From: Solobacterium sp.
GTDB taxonomy: Bacteria; Bacillota_I; Bacilli_A; Erysipelotrichales; Erysipelotrichaceae
Length of the DNA stretch: 53,349 bases
Assembly: GCA_017512725.1 (NCBI GenBank)
Contig: JAFWEW010000030.1
Span: 1 to 53,349, forward strand
Direction of reading: 5' to 3'
Shown here: piece by piece, positions 8,187 through 40,599 of the stretch
How the letters are laid out: each line of letters starts with the position of its first letter
Position numbering within the stretch: the first letter of the stretch is position 1
The notes under the pieces: model-generated
Databases searched by the model: none
Seen by the model: the letters and a program-made list of their open reading frames with translations, nothing else
Told to the model about the DNA's origin: nothing
Position numbers and translations under genes: made by a program

Positions 8187-10423
8187 CAGTGCTTGTAGTA
8201 GTTAATGAGGCATCCGCTTGCCAGGATCTCCCGTTCTCCCGCTTCCAGAGAACCAAGTTCAACTGCAAACGGCAGAACCGTTCCGTCCGGTCTGATGATC
8301 CATGCCTGCACGGGTTTGTCTTCCAGAAGCGCTGTCCGGACCCCCTTCAGGAAGACCCAGTCATTCCGTTCCAGCTTTTCGGATTCGGCAGTCACAAACG
8401 GCAGGATTCCCCAGTTGATCAGATTGGAGCGGTACCGTTTCGTCGCATATTCTTTCGCGAAGTTGGCGCTTCCGCCCAGCACTCTCTGGCAGGATGCCGC
8501 CTGTTCTCTCGCACTCCCGTCCCCCGGTTTATGTGCGTAGATGGAAGATCCGACGAGTGTTCTGGAGAGATCCGCTTCCATGCCTGCCTGTTTCAGGGCA
8601 TCGATCACTTCCTGCAGTTCTGCAGCGATCGTTCCGTTTCTGCGCTGCTCTTCCAGTTTCTTTACCGCTTTTGCGTTCGGCACATACTCCGGGTCTTTGC
8701 GGGACAGTGTGAATTCCGCAAGCCGCAGCGGATTGGAGCGGAAGCTGGAGGTTTCGCCGCTTGGGATCAGCTCATCGGTTGTTGTGACCGGATCGGTGAT
8801 ATAGGAAATATTCTTTACCAGCAGATCCTCGCTGAGTTCCGGCTGTTCCGGCCAGTCTTTGATATTCGGTCCGAACCGCAGTTCATACTCCGGTTCCGGA
8901 TGACCCCACCCGTTATAAACTCTCTGCTTATATATATTCGCATTAAACTGCGCTGCCGGAATCACAACCGGTTCACTGAGCACTTCATCTCCTGCAGTCA
9001 GAACACCCTGGTTCTTTGCGGTGGCAGCGATCGAGCGGGCATCCATCAGTGCCACGCCGGCGATCTGTCCTTCACCCGGCTTTGAACCTTCCCGGTTCGG
9101 GAAATTCCGGGTGCTGTGGCGGATCGAGAACTCTCCGTTTGCCGGGGTATCGCCGGCACCGAAACACGGGCCGCAGAACGCTTCCCGAATGATTGTACCG
9201 CTGCTGACCAGCCGGCTCACAGCGCCGTTGTTTACGAGTTCCTGGTATACCGGCATACTGTCGGGATAGATGCTGAGACGGAATTCTCCGTTTCCGCAAC
9301 TGCTGTCCTTCAGGATCTCTGCCGCAGTCATGATGTTTTCATAAATGCCGCCGGAGCAGCCTGCGATCACACCCTGATCGACATGAACCGTTCCGTCCGC
9401 ATCGATCTTTGAGACGAGATCCATGGTGACCTTCCCGCCAAGCTGCTGGTTGGACCGGTCCTGTGCTTCCTGAAGATACTTCTTCGGATCTGCCTTTAGT
9501 TCTTTAATCGACACTGCATAGCTTGGATGCATCGGAAGTGCGATCATACATTCGACTTCGGAAAGATCCAGTTCAATGCACGCATCATAGTATGCCCCTT
9601 CCAGCGGTTCGATCTTTTTGTAATCCTGCGGGCGGCCGTGAACGCTGTAATACTCCTCCGTAACCGCATCGGTTTCCCAGATGGAAGACCAGCAGGTCGT
9701 TTCCGTTGTCATAACATCGATGCCGTTCCGTTCATCCTGCGACAGGGAGGCTATACCGGGGCCGGCAAATTCCATGACTTTGTTCTTCACAAAGCCGCTT
9801 TCATAAGTCGCTGCCACAAGGCTCAGTGCTACGTCCTGCGGGCCGACACCCGGGCGCAGTTTTCCGGTCAGGTATACAAGAACCACCTGCGGGCGCTCCA
9901 TGTCATACGTACGCTTTACCAGCTGTTTTGCCAGCTCGCCGCCGCCTTCACCGACTCCCATGGTGCCAAGTGCACCATAACGGGTATGGGAATCCGATCC
10001 CAGGATCATCCTGCCGACTCCGCTCATGCATTCCCGGTTATAGCTGTGAATGACTGCCATGCACGGCGGAACAAAAATACCTCCGTATTTATGCGCTGCA
10101 GAAAGTGCAAACTGATGATCATCTTCATTGATCGTTCCGCCTACAGCACAGAGTGTGTTGTGGCAGTTGGTCATGACATACGGCATCGGGAACTCCTTCA
10201 TGCCGGAAGCTCTCGCCGTCTGGATGATGCCGACATAGGTAATGTCGTGACTCGTCAGAGAGTCAAATGTAATATGCAGAACATCCGGATCGCTGTGATT
10301 GTCGTGAGCATCCAGGATCCGGTATGCCATGGTCTTCTGTTTTCCTTCTTCCCTGGAACATCCGCTGATATATTCTGCCGGACTTCCGTTTGCGTAGAAT
10401 ACGCCGTTCTTTCTCAGTTTCAT
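8186..10423 (-). CDS. Aconitase family hydratase
   Basis: A 745-residue [4Fe-4S] dehydratase of the aconitase superfamily, expected to interconvert citrate and isocitrate. Substrate and cluster motifs visible are ILGSDSHTRYGALGTMGVGEGG, GVIAGCSGGIYENI with one cluster Cys, and FCGPCFGAGDTPANGEFSIRH with the other two. The C-terminal swivel domain follows (AKEYATKRYRSNLINWGILPF). The sequence style is that of the aconitase-like hydratases found in anaerobic Firmicutes and of E. coli YbhJ rather than canonical AcnA. The start ATG 10423 follows GGTGGAG; a longer frame to 10474 has no such site. It is divergent from citrate synthase, which supports the citrate role. 2-methylisocitrate or homologous substrates cannot be excluded. 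Confidence 0.85.
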   Translation of the reverse strand: MKLRKNGVFYANGSPAEYISGCSREEGKQKTMAYRILDAHDNHSDPDVLHITFDSLTSHDITYVGIIQTARASGMKEFPMPYVMTNCHNTLCAVGGTINEDDHQFALSAAHKYGGIFVPPCMAVIHSYNRECMSGVGRMILGSDSHTRYGALGTMGVGEGGGELAKQLVKRTYDMERPQVVLVYLTGKLRPGVGPQDVALSLVAATYESGFVKNKVMEFAGPGIASLSQDERNGIDVMTTETTCWSSIWETDAVTEEYYSVHGRPQDYKKIEPLEGAYYDACIELDLSEVECMIALPMHPSYAVSIKELKADPKKYLQEAQDRSNQQLGGKVTMDLVSKIDADGTVHVDQGVIAGCSGGIYENIMTAAEILKDSSCGNGEFRLSIYPDSMPVYQELVNNGAVSRLVSSGTIIREAFCGPCFGAGDTPANGEFSIRHSTRNFPNREGSKPGEGQIAGVALMDARSIAATAKNQGVLTAGDEVLSEPVVIPAAQFNANIYKQRVYNGWGHPEPEYELRFGPNIKDWPEQPELSEDLLVKNISYITDPVTTTDELIPSGETSSFRSNPLRLAEFTLSRKDPEYVPNAKAVKKLEEQRRNGTIAAELQEVIDALKQAGMEADLSRTLVGSSIYAHKPGDGSAREQAASCQRVLGGSANFAKEYATKRYRSNLINWGILPFVTAESEKLERNDWVFLKGVRTALLEDKPVQAWIIRPDGTVLPFAVELGSLEAGEREILASGCLINYYKH

Positions 10424-31107: not shown

Positions 31108-31428
31108 CTAAACATACTTCTGTATCAGATCAATAATATCATCCTTGGTAATACAGAAATTCGTTAAAGGATTATACAGTCCGGCGATACCGGTATAACA
31201 AAACGGTTTGGGAATTGGAGTTACCCAGAAATTATTTACATACTTCTTCACAGTTTCTCTGCTGTTATCTGGAATATTGATACTATGAAAGAAATCTGCA
31301 AATTCTTTTGCAAGTTTATTTGCCTGCTCTGCTTTGGGCTCAGGGATCCAGCCTCCAGCAGTTGCCTCTAACTCTTCGGAACTTAGTGTTTCCTTTTCAG
31401 AAAGTTGCTTTACATTTTTGTTATCCAT
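31108..31428 (-). CDS. Double-glycine leader peptide, putative RiPP/bacteriocin precursor A
   Basis: A 106-residue secreted-peptide candidate. The N-terminus MDNKNVKQLSEKETLSSEEL leads to EATAGG at residues 21-26, a leader of the type cut by peptidase-containing ABC exporters (LSSEELEATAGG). The 80-residue remainder has a proline-rich patch and only two Cys (FCYTGIAGLYNPLTNFC), which could form a disulfide or be modified. GGAGGT precedes ATG 31428. It lies 48 bases after the second GG-leader gene and ends in terminators. No maturation enzyme, exporter or immunity gene is visible nearby, and the family is not recognised. Confidence 0.7.
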   Translation of the reverse strand: MDNKNVKQLSEKETLSSEELEATAGGWIPEPKAEQANKLAKEFADFFHSINIPDNSRETVKKYVNNFWVTPIPKPFCYTGIAGLYNPLTNFCITKDDIIDLIQKYV

Positions 31429-31476
31429 TCTTCAGACCTCCGTATGTATCTGGGCTTCAAACTATTAGATCGGATG

Positions 31477-31734
31477 TTATCTCCAGCTTTCAGTTGCACG
31501 AATCACATTACCGCACTTACATTTAAATGCATTATTCATGTAGGTACTATAAGCCTGATCTACATCGTAATCCCGAATTACCGTTCTCAGCTGACGGCCG
31601 CAGAAATTGCAACGTACATTGCCATAGTGGTCAATCCACCATTTTTTCCAGGCCTCAGCCCATTCCTGCCACTCTTTTTCATATTGACCACCACTGATTT
31701 TTTCTAAATCATGTTCATCAAGATTCATTTTCAT
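31477..31734 (-). CDS. Double-glycine leader peptide, putative precursor B with Cys-pair core
   Basis: An 85-residue peptide. MKMNLDEHDLEKISGG (residues 1-16) is a classical bacteriocin-type GG leader. The core starts with an amphipathic tryptophan-rich stretch (EKEWQEWAEAWKKWWIDHYG, seven aromatic residues) and then a zinc-ribbon-like pair, CNFCGRQ and CKCGN, about 26 residues apart. AAGGAG precedes ATG 31734 at 11 bases. It is first in a two-gene unit with precursor A. Function is unknown; a leader-secreted peptide is inferred from the leader alone. Confidence 0.7.
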   Translation of the reverse strand: MKMNLDEHDLEKISGGQYEKEWQEWAEAWKKWWIDHYGNVRCNFCGRQLRTVIRDYDVDQAYSTYMNNAFKCKCGNVIRATESWR

Positions 31735-31851
31735 AATAGTTAAATCTCCTTATTGCAACTTCATTTATTTATACGATTCTTTACATTACATTCTATGTTG
31801 TTACGAAGGTGCCTTAACTGCAAGTAAGCCCTGCGCCGTAACAGCAGCCAT

Positions 31852-38896: not shown

Positions 38897-40417
38897 TCAT
38901 TCCTGCCCGGAAAGGATGGATTCCGGCTGATAACGGTATTTTTCACAGGCGCGCTCGACCATGGCAGGACTATTCATATTCGTATGAGCCAGTTCCATTG
39001 TGAGAAGTCCGCCGTTTTCCAGAGTCTCTTTTTGGAAACAAGGAACTGTCACATTCACATGATAGTCTTCCGTCTTATATGGTTCTCCGCCAATCGAATA
39101 GCTTCCCCGACAGGTCAGCTCACAGCTCTTCGTCGGAATAATCACGGTTTCAATTCGATAGGTATCATCTACGAGCGGTGTGTTATCTCCGGTCACAAAA
39201 CGCAGTTCGGTCGGAGGGTTATCGACATCGAGCAGGGCATACAGCGTGATGCTCGGGTATTCTTCGTAATTTCCACCATAATCCGCAACGATGGAATCCC
39301 CATCTGGATCATACATAAAGAACAGTGTAAAGCCGCTGCTCTTTCCTTCGCAGTTACAGCTGAGACAGAAGTAATACAGCACTTGCATATACTGCATATC
39401 CTGCTGACGTGCCCACTCAAGCAGTTCGGAAAAATCAACGGTTGTTCTAAGCAGTTCAGCCGCACTGCCGCTTTCAACGGAAACGGACGTGGAGCCGTTC
39501 AGACGCCCCTCAAAGGCGGGAAACGAAGGAACTCCAGCCTCCGGTTCGAGGTGCCACTCAGCGCTCACGATTTCGGCCTTTCCCCAGCCGTCGTTAAACG
39601 CAAACGCTGTCAGGGTATTATCTTCCAGAAGCACTCCGTCCGCACGGATGACAGGCGTTTCCACTGGTGTCAGTTCATCGATCTCACAGGCGATCTTTTC
39701 CACAAACACCGATTCTTCGGATGGATTTTTGATAAAACTCAGCAGGGAGAATGCCCTGTCATACTCAGGAAGATCGTATTCACTTTCCTGTGCGGACTGT
39801 ACGGTGGCATAGCTGCCGGTTTCATAGAACGGAAGCACTTCGGAGTAATACACCGATGCAGCCTGAGTTGCCTGCTGTGTCTGCGGTTCAGCAGGTTTTC
39901 GAGTAAAGAAATATGCCGCTAAACCGGTGAGCAGTGTGATGATGGCAAGGCCAGCAATGATCCAGGGGACATTGTTGTTCTTTTTGACGACCTTGATTTC
40001 CACTCTTGCGGTGCTGTCCTGTCCAAGCACCTCACGGATATCCTTTACTACCCGCTGCAAAGCCGACTCTTCATCCTTCCAGGCAAACACCTGCTGCATT
40101 GTACTCATGGAGAATGCAAACTCATCTTCCAATGGACAGTCCTGAATGACATACGGGATGACAAGCTTTTCCTTACTGATTGCTTGGGAAAACTCATTCT
40201 TGACCCATGTGGAGTGCTGAGACTTCTCTGATACCAGTACAATCATTGCCTTGCAGTTTTCAATTGCCTGGGGTATCTGTTTCATATAGTTGGATCCGAC
40301 GGGGATACTGTCCGGTGCCATCCAGCAGGAAATCCCGTTCTGTTCGAGAACATTCCTTACCCGCTTGGCGTATTCTTCCTCATCTGATTTGTAGCTGATA
40401 AACACATCTGCGCACAT
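38897..40417 (-). CDS. Membrane-anchored TIR domain protein
   Basis: A 506-residue receptor-like protein. Residues 1-130 are a TIR domain: MCADVFISYKSDEEEYAKRV, GISCWMAPDSIPVGSNY, AMIVLVSEKSQHSTWVKNEF with Glu75 in the position of the catalytic NADase glutamate, and LVIPYVIQDCPL. A single membrane segment spans about residues 151-171 (WIIAGLAIITLLTGLAAYFF) and about 330 residues of extracellular beta-rich sequence follow, no known domain recognised. The start ATG 40417 has AGGAG. The orientation (cytoplasmic TIR, external sensor-like part) resembles a signalling receptor. An anti-phage or stress-NADase role is possible; no partner effector gene is adjacent. Confidence 0.85.
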   Translation of the reverse strand: MCADVFISYKSDEEEYAKRVRNVLEQNGISCWMAPDSIPVGSNYMKQIPQAIENCKAMIVLVSEKSQHSTWVKNEFSQAISKEKLVIPYVIQDCPLEDEFAFSMSTMQQVFAWKDEESALQRVVKDIREVLGQDSTARVEIKVVKKNNNVPWIIAGLAIITLLTGLAAYFFTRKPAEPQTQQATQAASVYYSEVLPFYETGSYATVQSAQESEYDLPEYDRAFSLLSFIKNPSEESVFVEKIACEIDELTPVETPVIRADGVLLEDNTLTAFAFNDGWGKAEIVSAEWHLEPEAGVPSFPAFEGRLNGSTSVSVESGSAAELLRTTVDFSELLEWARQQDMQYMQVLYYFCLSCNCEGKSSGFTLFFMYDPDGDSIVADYGGNYEEYPSITLYALLDVDNPPTELRFVTGDNTPLVDDTYRIETVIIPTKSCELTCRGSYSIGGEPYKTEDYHVNVTVPCFQKETLENGGLLTMELAHTNMNSPAMVERACEKYRYQPESILSGQE

Positions 40418-40599
40418 GATGATTCTCCTGTCTTTTCGAAACGAAGGATTCGTTCCAGAAACTGTCAATCTTTGCACTATCATTATCACAGGATTCCCCT
40501 GTTTCCAATAGTGATTTCGGGATGCCTGTACTGCGCCAGTCAGTGTAATGCCGTTCTTTCAAGGATTTCCTTTTTTCCGCTATAGCCCGCTTCCCGCTT

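Follow-up and report, generated by a model that had tools for sequence, protein, structure and literature searches.

Two neighbouring double-glycine leader genes as likely members of a dispersed set of exported small proteins

The two small genes described here, designated A and B, are best explained as belonging to a regulon, dispersed over the genome and numbering about 30 genes or more, whose products would be unmodified proteins with double-glycine (GG) leaders, regulated by a sigma factor and cleaved and exported by a shared peptidase-containing ABC transporter (PCAT); the probability of this reading was put at about 0.72. Activation of the sigma factor would lead to co-expression of many precursors, genes A and B being transcribed together from one promoter of the alternative-sigma type. 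An NHLM-type PCAT encoded on another contig (C45) would then bind each leader (Leu -12, acidic residue -8, Leu -7), cut after GG and export the core, which would fold outside the cell, core A probably around a metal. The precursors of such a regulon would have leader type, promoter and exporter in common and would differ in their cores.

Gene pair and local context

The window was the whole stretch of 53,349 nucleotides analysed, and the features discussed are listed in Table 1. Two ORFs 48 bp apart, with the leaders and cysteine patterns that the sequence-only reading had described, were present exactly as reported; gene B lies downstream of gene A, the distance being that from the gene A stop to the gene B start. 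The patch is also richer in A+T than its neighbours, as had been remarked, with a GC content of 38.9% against 48.6% for the whole window and a GC3 of 34-39% where the genes on either side have 57%; by eye we take these two to be a LacI-type regulator and an NCS2-type permease. It had further been noted that no exporter-peptidase is within reach, and the only two C39 matches in the genome do lie outside the window, on contigs C45 and C12. The description as an orphan pair was abandoned, the pair being one of many GG-precursor loci in the genome.

Table 1. Coordinates of the features discussed (positions in the window unless a contig is named; G000 is the same genome).
Feature	Position	Strand	Remark
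Gene A ORF	31480-31734 (to stop: 31477..31734)	minus	85 aa, leader + 69-aa core
Gene B ORF	31111-31428 (to stop: 31108..31428)	minus	106 aa, leader + 80-aa core
Shine-Dalgarno-like AAGGAG, gene A	31746-31751	minus	read from sequence
Shine-Dalgarno-like GGAGG, gene B	31437-31441	minus	read from sequence
Alternative-sigma-like promoter of the pair, TAGA-N16-CGTATA	31770..31795 (-35 31792-31795; -10 31770-31775)	minus	motif match
B-type frameshifted remnant	G000:C36:46199-46397 (L014 ~9699-9900)		after intact A-type gene
C12 exporter locus (L002/L004)	G000:C12:126028 region

Homologues, cores and pairing

Judged from sequence conservation, A and B are real genes: the GG boundary, on which the earlier reading had been made to depend, and the cores are kept in other genera and dN/dS is low, which takes both frames beyond chance. 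The gene A family is present in two genera, and in the family alignment (n=8) the GG, three Cys and one Trp are invariant. Two Cys pairs occur in 8/8 aligned members, with three invariant Cys columns and a fourth that shifts between CxC and CxxC. Close pairs of gene A's relatives gave a dN/dS of 0.08; synonymous sites were saturated in distant pairs of the family, those with gene A itself included.

Core A combines an aromatic helix-like stretch with a CxxC...CxC pattern resembling a zinc ribbon, and its matches in Pfam and NCBIfam were all sub-threshold. A single-sequence structure model had a mean pLDDT of 78 and was confident over the core; Foldseek found no significant match for it in the PDB or BFVD, and a VIA fold comparison returned one row (Z 2.4). 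Going by its Cys pattern, this core is likely to form a metal-bound ribbon that follows an aromatic helix.

Gene B shares about 60% identity with its homologues in another genus, among them a sequence from an Erysipelotrichaceae MAG of goat jejunum. All of them have kept the GG boundary and a large part of the core unchanged, and the dN/dS of 0.19-0.29 indicates purifying selection. Core B carries two FC dipeptides, and the structure model of gene B's product (mean pLDDT 55) was too poor for a fold to be assigned. Several genomes contain a more common family of GG cores with the C-terminus M-[ST/N]-H-x-E-[FL]-M (L023:925-1227, L060, L105 and L106), once adjoining an A-type zinc-ribbon precursor; a distant relationship of gene B to this family, suspected by eye, was rejected on an hhalign probability of ~0.1%.

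Conserved synteny of the two genes, one of the checks proposed from the sequence, was found in part, A/B-type pairing occurring at three loci in all. Contig C36 of this genome carries an intact A-type gene with the frameshifted B-type remnant directly behind it, and in genome G201, from another genus, one gene of each type was found in convergent orientation, ~190 bp apart. The two types are on separate contigs in genome G180. Pairing is thus recurrent across genomes but not obligatory. Neighbouring GG precursors whose cores are unrelated occur commonly across the genome.

Leaders and exporter

Leader A reads MKMNLDEHDLEKISGG, with the cut point before QYEKEWQ..., and leader B ends in LSSEELEATAGG, with the cut point before WIPEPK.... 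With L-12, D-8 and L-7 in gene A and L-12, E-8 and L-7 in gene B, both conform to the PCAT substrate consensus L(-12)xxxE(-8)L(-7)xxxxGG established for PCAT1 (PMC6959990), and positions -12, -8, -7 and -4 are conserved among the precursors. We infer from the sequences that cores A and B would be cleaved off and exported.

The earlier suggestion of double-glycine precursors served by machinery encoded elsewhere, which called for a C39 exporter in the genome, was borne out by an active-type exporter on C45, one of the two C39-type ABC proteins. It scored 923 bits against NHLM_micro_ABC1 (TIGR03796; cut-off 853), aligned over residues 1-147, the whole domain, with the LahT peptidase structure sequence 6mpz, and retains the catalytic Cys, His and Asp. 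An ECF sigma gene stands first in its cluster, accompanied by the exporter gene and the genes for a second ABC protein (ABC2) and a short HlyD-like protein. The cluster is called NHLM-type here and not a full member, since ABC2 (694 bits to TIGR03797, cut-off 709) and the HlyD-like protein (28 bits to TIGR03794, cut-off 156, 44 residues matched) both fall under the cut-offs. The LahT150 peptidase tolerates very diverse cores (PMC6363468).

In the ABC protein on C12 the catalytic Cys is replaced by Asn (ENG for ECG) and the His is gone. NHLM-type ABC1 proteins of this conserved Asn-for-Cys, His-less group were seen in six genomes of two genera (L002/L004, L081, L083, L084, L085 and L087). As both catalytic residues are missing here and in five relatives, the C12-type C39 domain is probably a binding-only pseudopeptidase.

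Strong C39 exporters were found in 22 of the 26 leader-positive genomes of the family and in 18 of 218 others (n=244). For the genus, with 37 members listed, the same comparison gave 9/10 against 3/27, a count that controls for relatedness only partly. Among the 26 leader-positive genomes three had no reported C39 match and one had a weak match only; some of the assemblies are incomplete.

Promoter and sigma factor

A CGTATA element with a -35-like element at fixed spacing lies upstream of over half of the precursors, the pair included. CGTATA was present at -75 to -25 in 27/72 precursors against 2/249 control ORFs, and the full motif (-35 plus CGTATA) in 20/72 against 0/249. The motif was defined on these same 72 precursors, and the independent test was a genome search with TGGA-N16/17-CGTATA, which returned 33 matches against 6 for the reversed pattern. 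Among 30 motif loci examined, 17 were followed by a GG-leader ORF, and several of these ORFs had escaped the leader model. A later control (3/275) was discarded, since the motif itself had served to retrieve some of its loci; the 249-ORF control is older.

The TAGA-N16-CGTATA of the pair is the sole such match in the window and has one mismatch to TGGA. No motif of its own was found upstream of gene B, which is probably co-transcribed with gene A. The -35 element is TGGA in this genus and TTRCC in the other, the -10 CGTATA being kept in both, as would be expected if promoter and sigma factor had changed together. GTAAC, taken as the first candidate for the -35 element, proved wrong.

The ECF sigma factor of the C45 cluster is the obvious candidate regulator by position. 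Position is what links it to the motif, since the motif is absent upstream of the C45 exporter cluster and, in the other genus, no sigma gene adjoins the exporters. The exporter cluster was for the same absence rejected as a member of the promoter regulon.

Precursor repertoire

About 30 or more small GG-leader genes with unrelated cores are dispersed over the genome. A leader model built from the first relatives of the pair matched 32 places at E <=10, mostly small ORFs with a GG boundary. The precursor catalogue was selected by this model plus the GG requirement, so that its leader statistics are partly circular; precursors found by the promoter motif are evidence independent of the model.

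Zinc-ribbon families exceeded the Pfam cut-offs in two cores (Zn_ribbon_IS1595 and Lar), one core is a 2[4Fe-4S] ferredoxin (Fer4 over the cut-off) and others are helical; many had no Pfam match. Two or more closely spaced Cys pairs occurred in 6 of the 29 catalogued cores of this genome against 1.1 expected from shuffling (maximum 4 in 300 shuffles). Metal binding by the cores is what we infer from such patterns. The ferredoxin-core precursor (L139:776-1018, minus strand, near G000:C23:1084) has a TGGA/CGTATA promoter motif upstream.

It is proposed tentatively, at slightly less than even odds, that the regulon secretes unmodified, folded and often metal-binding microproteins, leader and promoter forming a cassette behind which the cores turn over freely. 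If true, the arrangement would amount to an effector system based on secretion and separate from bacteriocin clusters and from RiPPs, and if the cores are exported as folded metal proteins they would form a class of secreted microproteins not yet described from gut bacteria. As to their role, short-range competition between bacteria is the most likely, although this is the least certain part of the reading and is held with still less assurance. Signalling is considered less likely than competition in view of how many and how diverse the cores are and of a sign of turnover, one decayed copy in the genome; no immunity genes, however, were identified.

Alternative explanations

It is unlikely that the products are signalling peptides, or pheromones, matured by the PCAT. 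In streptococci, PCAT-exported GG peptides do act in cell-to-cell communication (PMC7018657), and gene A gave a weak match to the ComC leader, below the cut-off. The cores here, however, are of large size, many are rich in Cys and a single genome encodes a very wide variety of them, and the ORF list showed no recognisable receptor-type gene beside the pair.

Slightly less probable is that A and B are RiPP precursors whose cores are modified before export by enzymes encoded elsewhere, a possibility raised in the sequence-only reading. RiPP systems typically have GG leaders and exporters of the NHLM type (PMC2887384), and four SPASM radical SAM proteins exceeded the cut-off in the genome, none of them near the pair and one adjoining a Nif11-type precursor. 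A search of the genome for LANC-like proteins with PF05147, on the other hand, gave no match (the control matched only in Deinobacterium). The short leaders also fall below the Nif11 and NHLP models, leader B scoring 11.3 bits against TIGR03798 (Nif11; cut-off 32.3) and neither leader having a listed TIGR03793 (NHLP) match in the profile search, and the cores resemble folded metal-binding domains for which modification would be unnecessary. The locus on contig C43 (L069 and L119), in which a Nif11-like precursor ending in GG adjoins a SPASM radical SAM protein and a Fic-like gene, is a probable separate RiPP locus of another type.

A class IIb two-peptide bacteriocin, in which both cores would act jointly as a membrane-active toxin, is very unlikely. 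Adjacency of the GG precursors, the A/B-type pairing at three loci and weak leader matches to the cerein 7B and lactococcin G-beta models in the profile search speak for it. Against this, core B has 80 aa and a net charge of 0, core A has 69 aa and a charge of +2 and resembles a folded zinc ribbon, and neither has a GxxxG motif. Neither an exporter gene nor an immunity gene adjoins the pair, no gene for a small membrane protein being recognised beside it in the ORF list, and the partners are separated in G180 and unequally preserved on C36, where B is decayed and A intact. On these grounds the two-peptide bacteriocin put forward earlier is not supported in its classical form.

Zinc ribbons and ferredoxins are normally cytoplasmic domains, yet it is highly improbable that A and B are intracellular zinc-ribbon and helical proteins which are not exported and owe a GG-leader-like N-terminus to descent only, for one leader type precedes dozens of unrelated cores, keeps positions -12, -8, -7 and -4, and co-occurs with C39 exporters, within the genus too.

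Comparison with known systems

For an exported, sigma-regulated set of unmodified proteins, the leader, the exporter class and the presence of multiple variable precursors each have a precedent. PCAT1/CtA of Clostridium thermocellum (PMC6959990) shares the short L(-12)/E(-8)/L(-7)/GG leader, the C39 ABC exporter and a small-protein cargo (CtA, 66 aa) with no stated modification; here, in contrast, two dissimilar cargos are distant from the exporter and belong to a large dispersed set with a common promoter. LahT/LahA of Lachnospiraceae C6A11 (PMC6363468) has a very similar C39 domain and several precursors with diverse cores per exporter, but the LahA leaders are of the Nif11 type and are encoded, together with the exporter, within a lanthipeptide cluster, whereas here the leaders are short, the genes are dispersed and there is no LANC-like enzyme.

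The NHLP/NHLM systems (TIGR03794, TIGR03796 and TIGR03797; PMC2887384) have the same type of exporter cluster and precursors that are often apart from the exporter. They differ in that the leaders here are not of the nitrile-hydratase/Nif11 type, the HlyD-like protein is short and the cluster begins with an ECF sigma gene. In the prochlorosins of marine picocyanobacteria (PMC10783134), too, one machinery serves numerous precursors whose cores vary; these are Nif11-family lanthipeptides made by one promiscuous ProcM, an enzyme with no equivalent here, and the folded-domain cores and alternative-sigma-like promoter set the present genes apart from them. Class IIb bacteriocins are similar in having two neighbouring GG precursors and differ in core size, charge, the GxxxG motif and an adjoining immunity or exporter gene.

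None of the papers searched describes dispersed precursors with short leaders and cores that are folded and often metal-binding in combination with a promoter of the alternative-sigma-like type and a PCAT of the NHLM type, nor such a regulon in this lineage, subscription literature lying mostly outside the search; for ECF sigma factors with double-glycine peptides only one unrelated paper was found. GG peptides are usually sought beside an exporter or modifying enzyme, so dispersed repertoires are easily missed, and the promoter motif, which finds precursors from DNA alone, offers a second and independent route to them. With one active-type exporter, one candidate sigma factor and many substrates, the system is directly testable.

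Other observations

A phage origin of the pair was rejected, there being no match to gene A in phage records and no relatives of either gene in viral contigs, and so was a plasmid origin, no relatives of gene B being found in plasmids. Elsewhere in the window, an ORF at 38897-40489 on the minus strand has a TIR-like start (ADVFISYKSDEEEYAKRVRNVLEQNGISCWMAPDSIPVGSNY), a transmembrane-like segment and a long C-terminal region.
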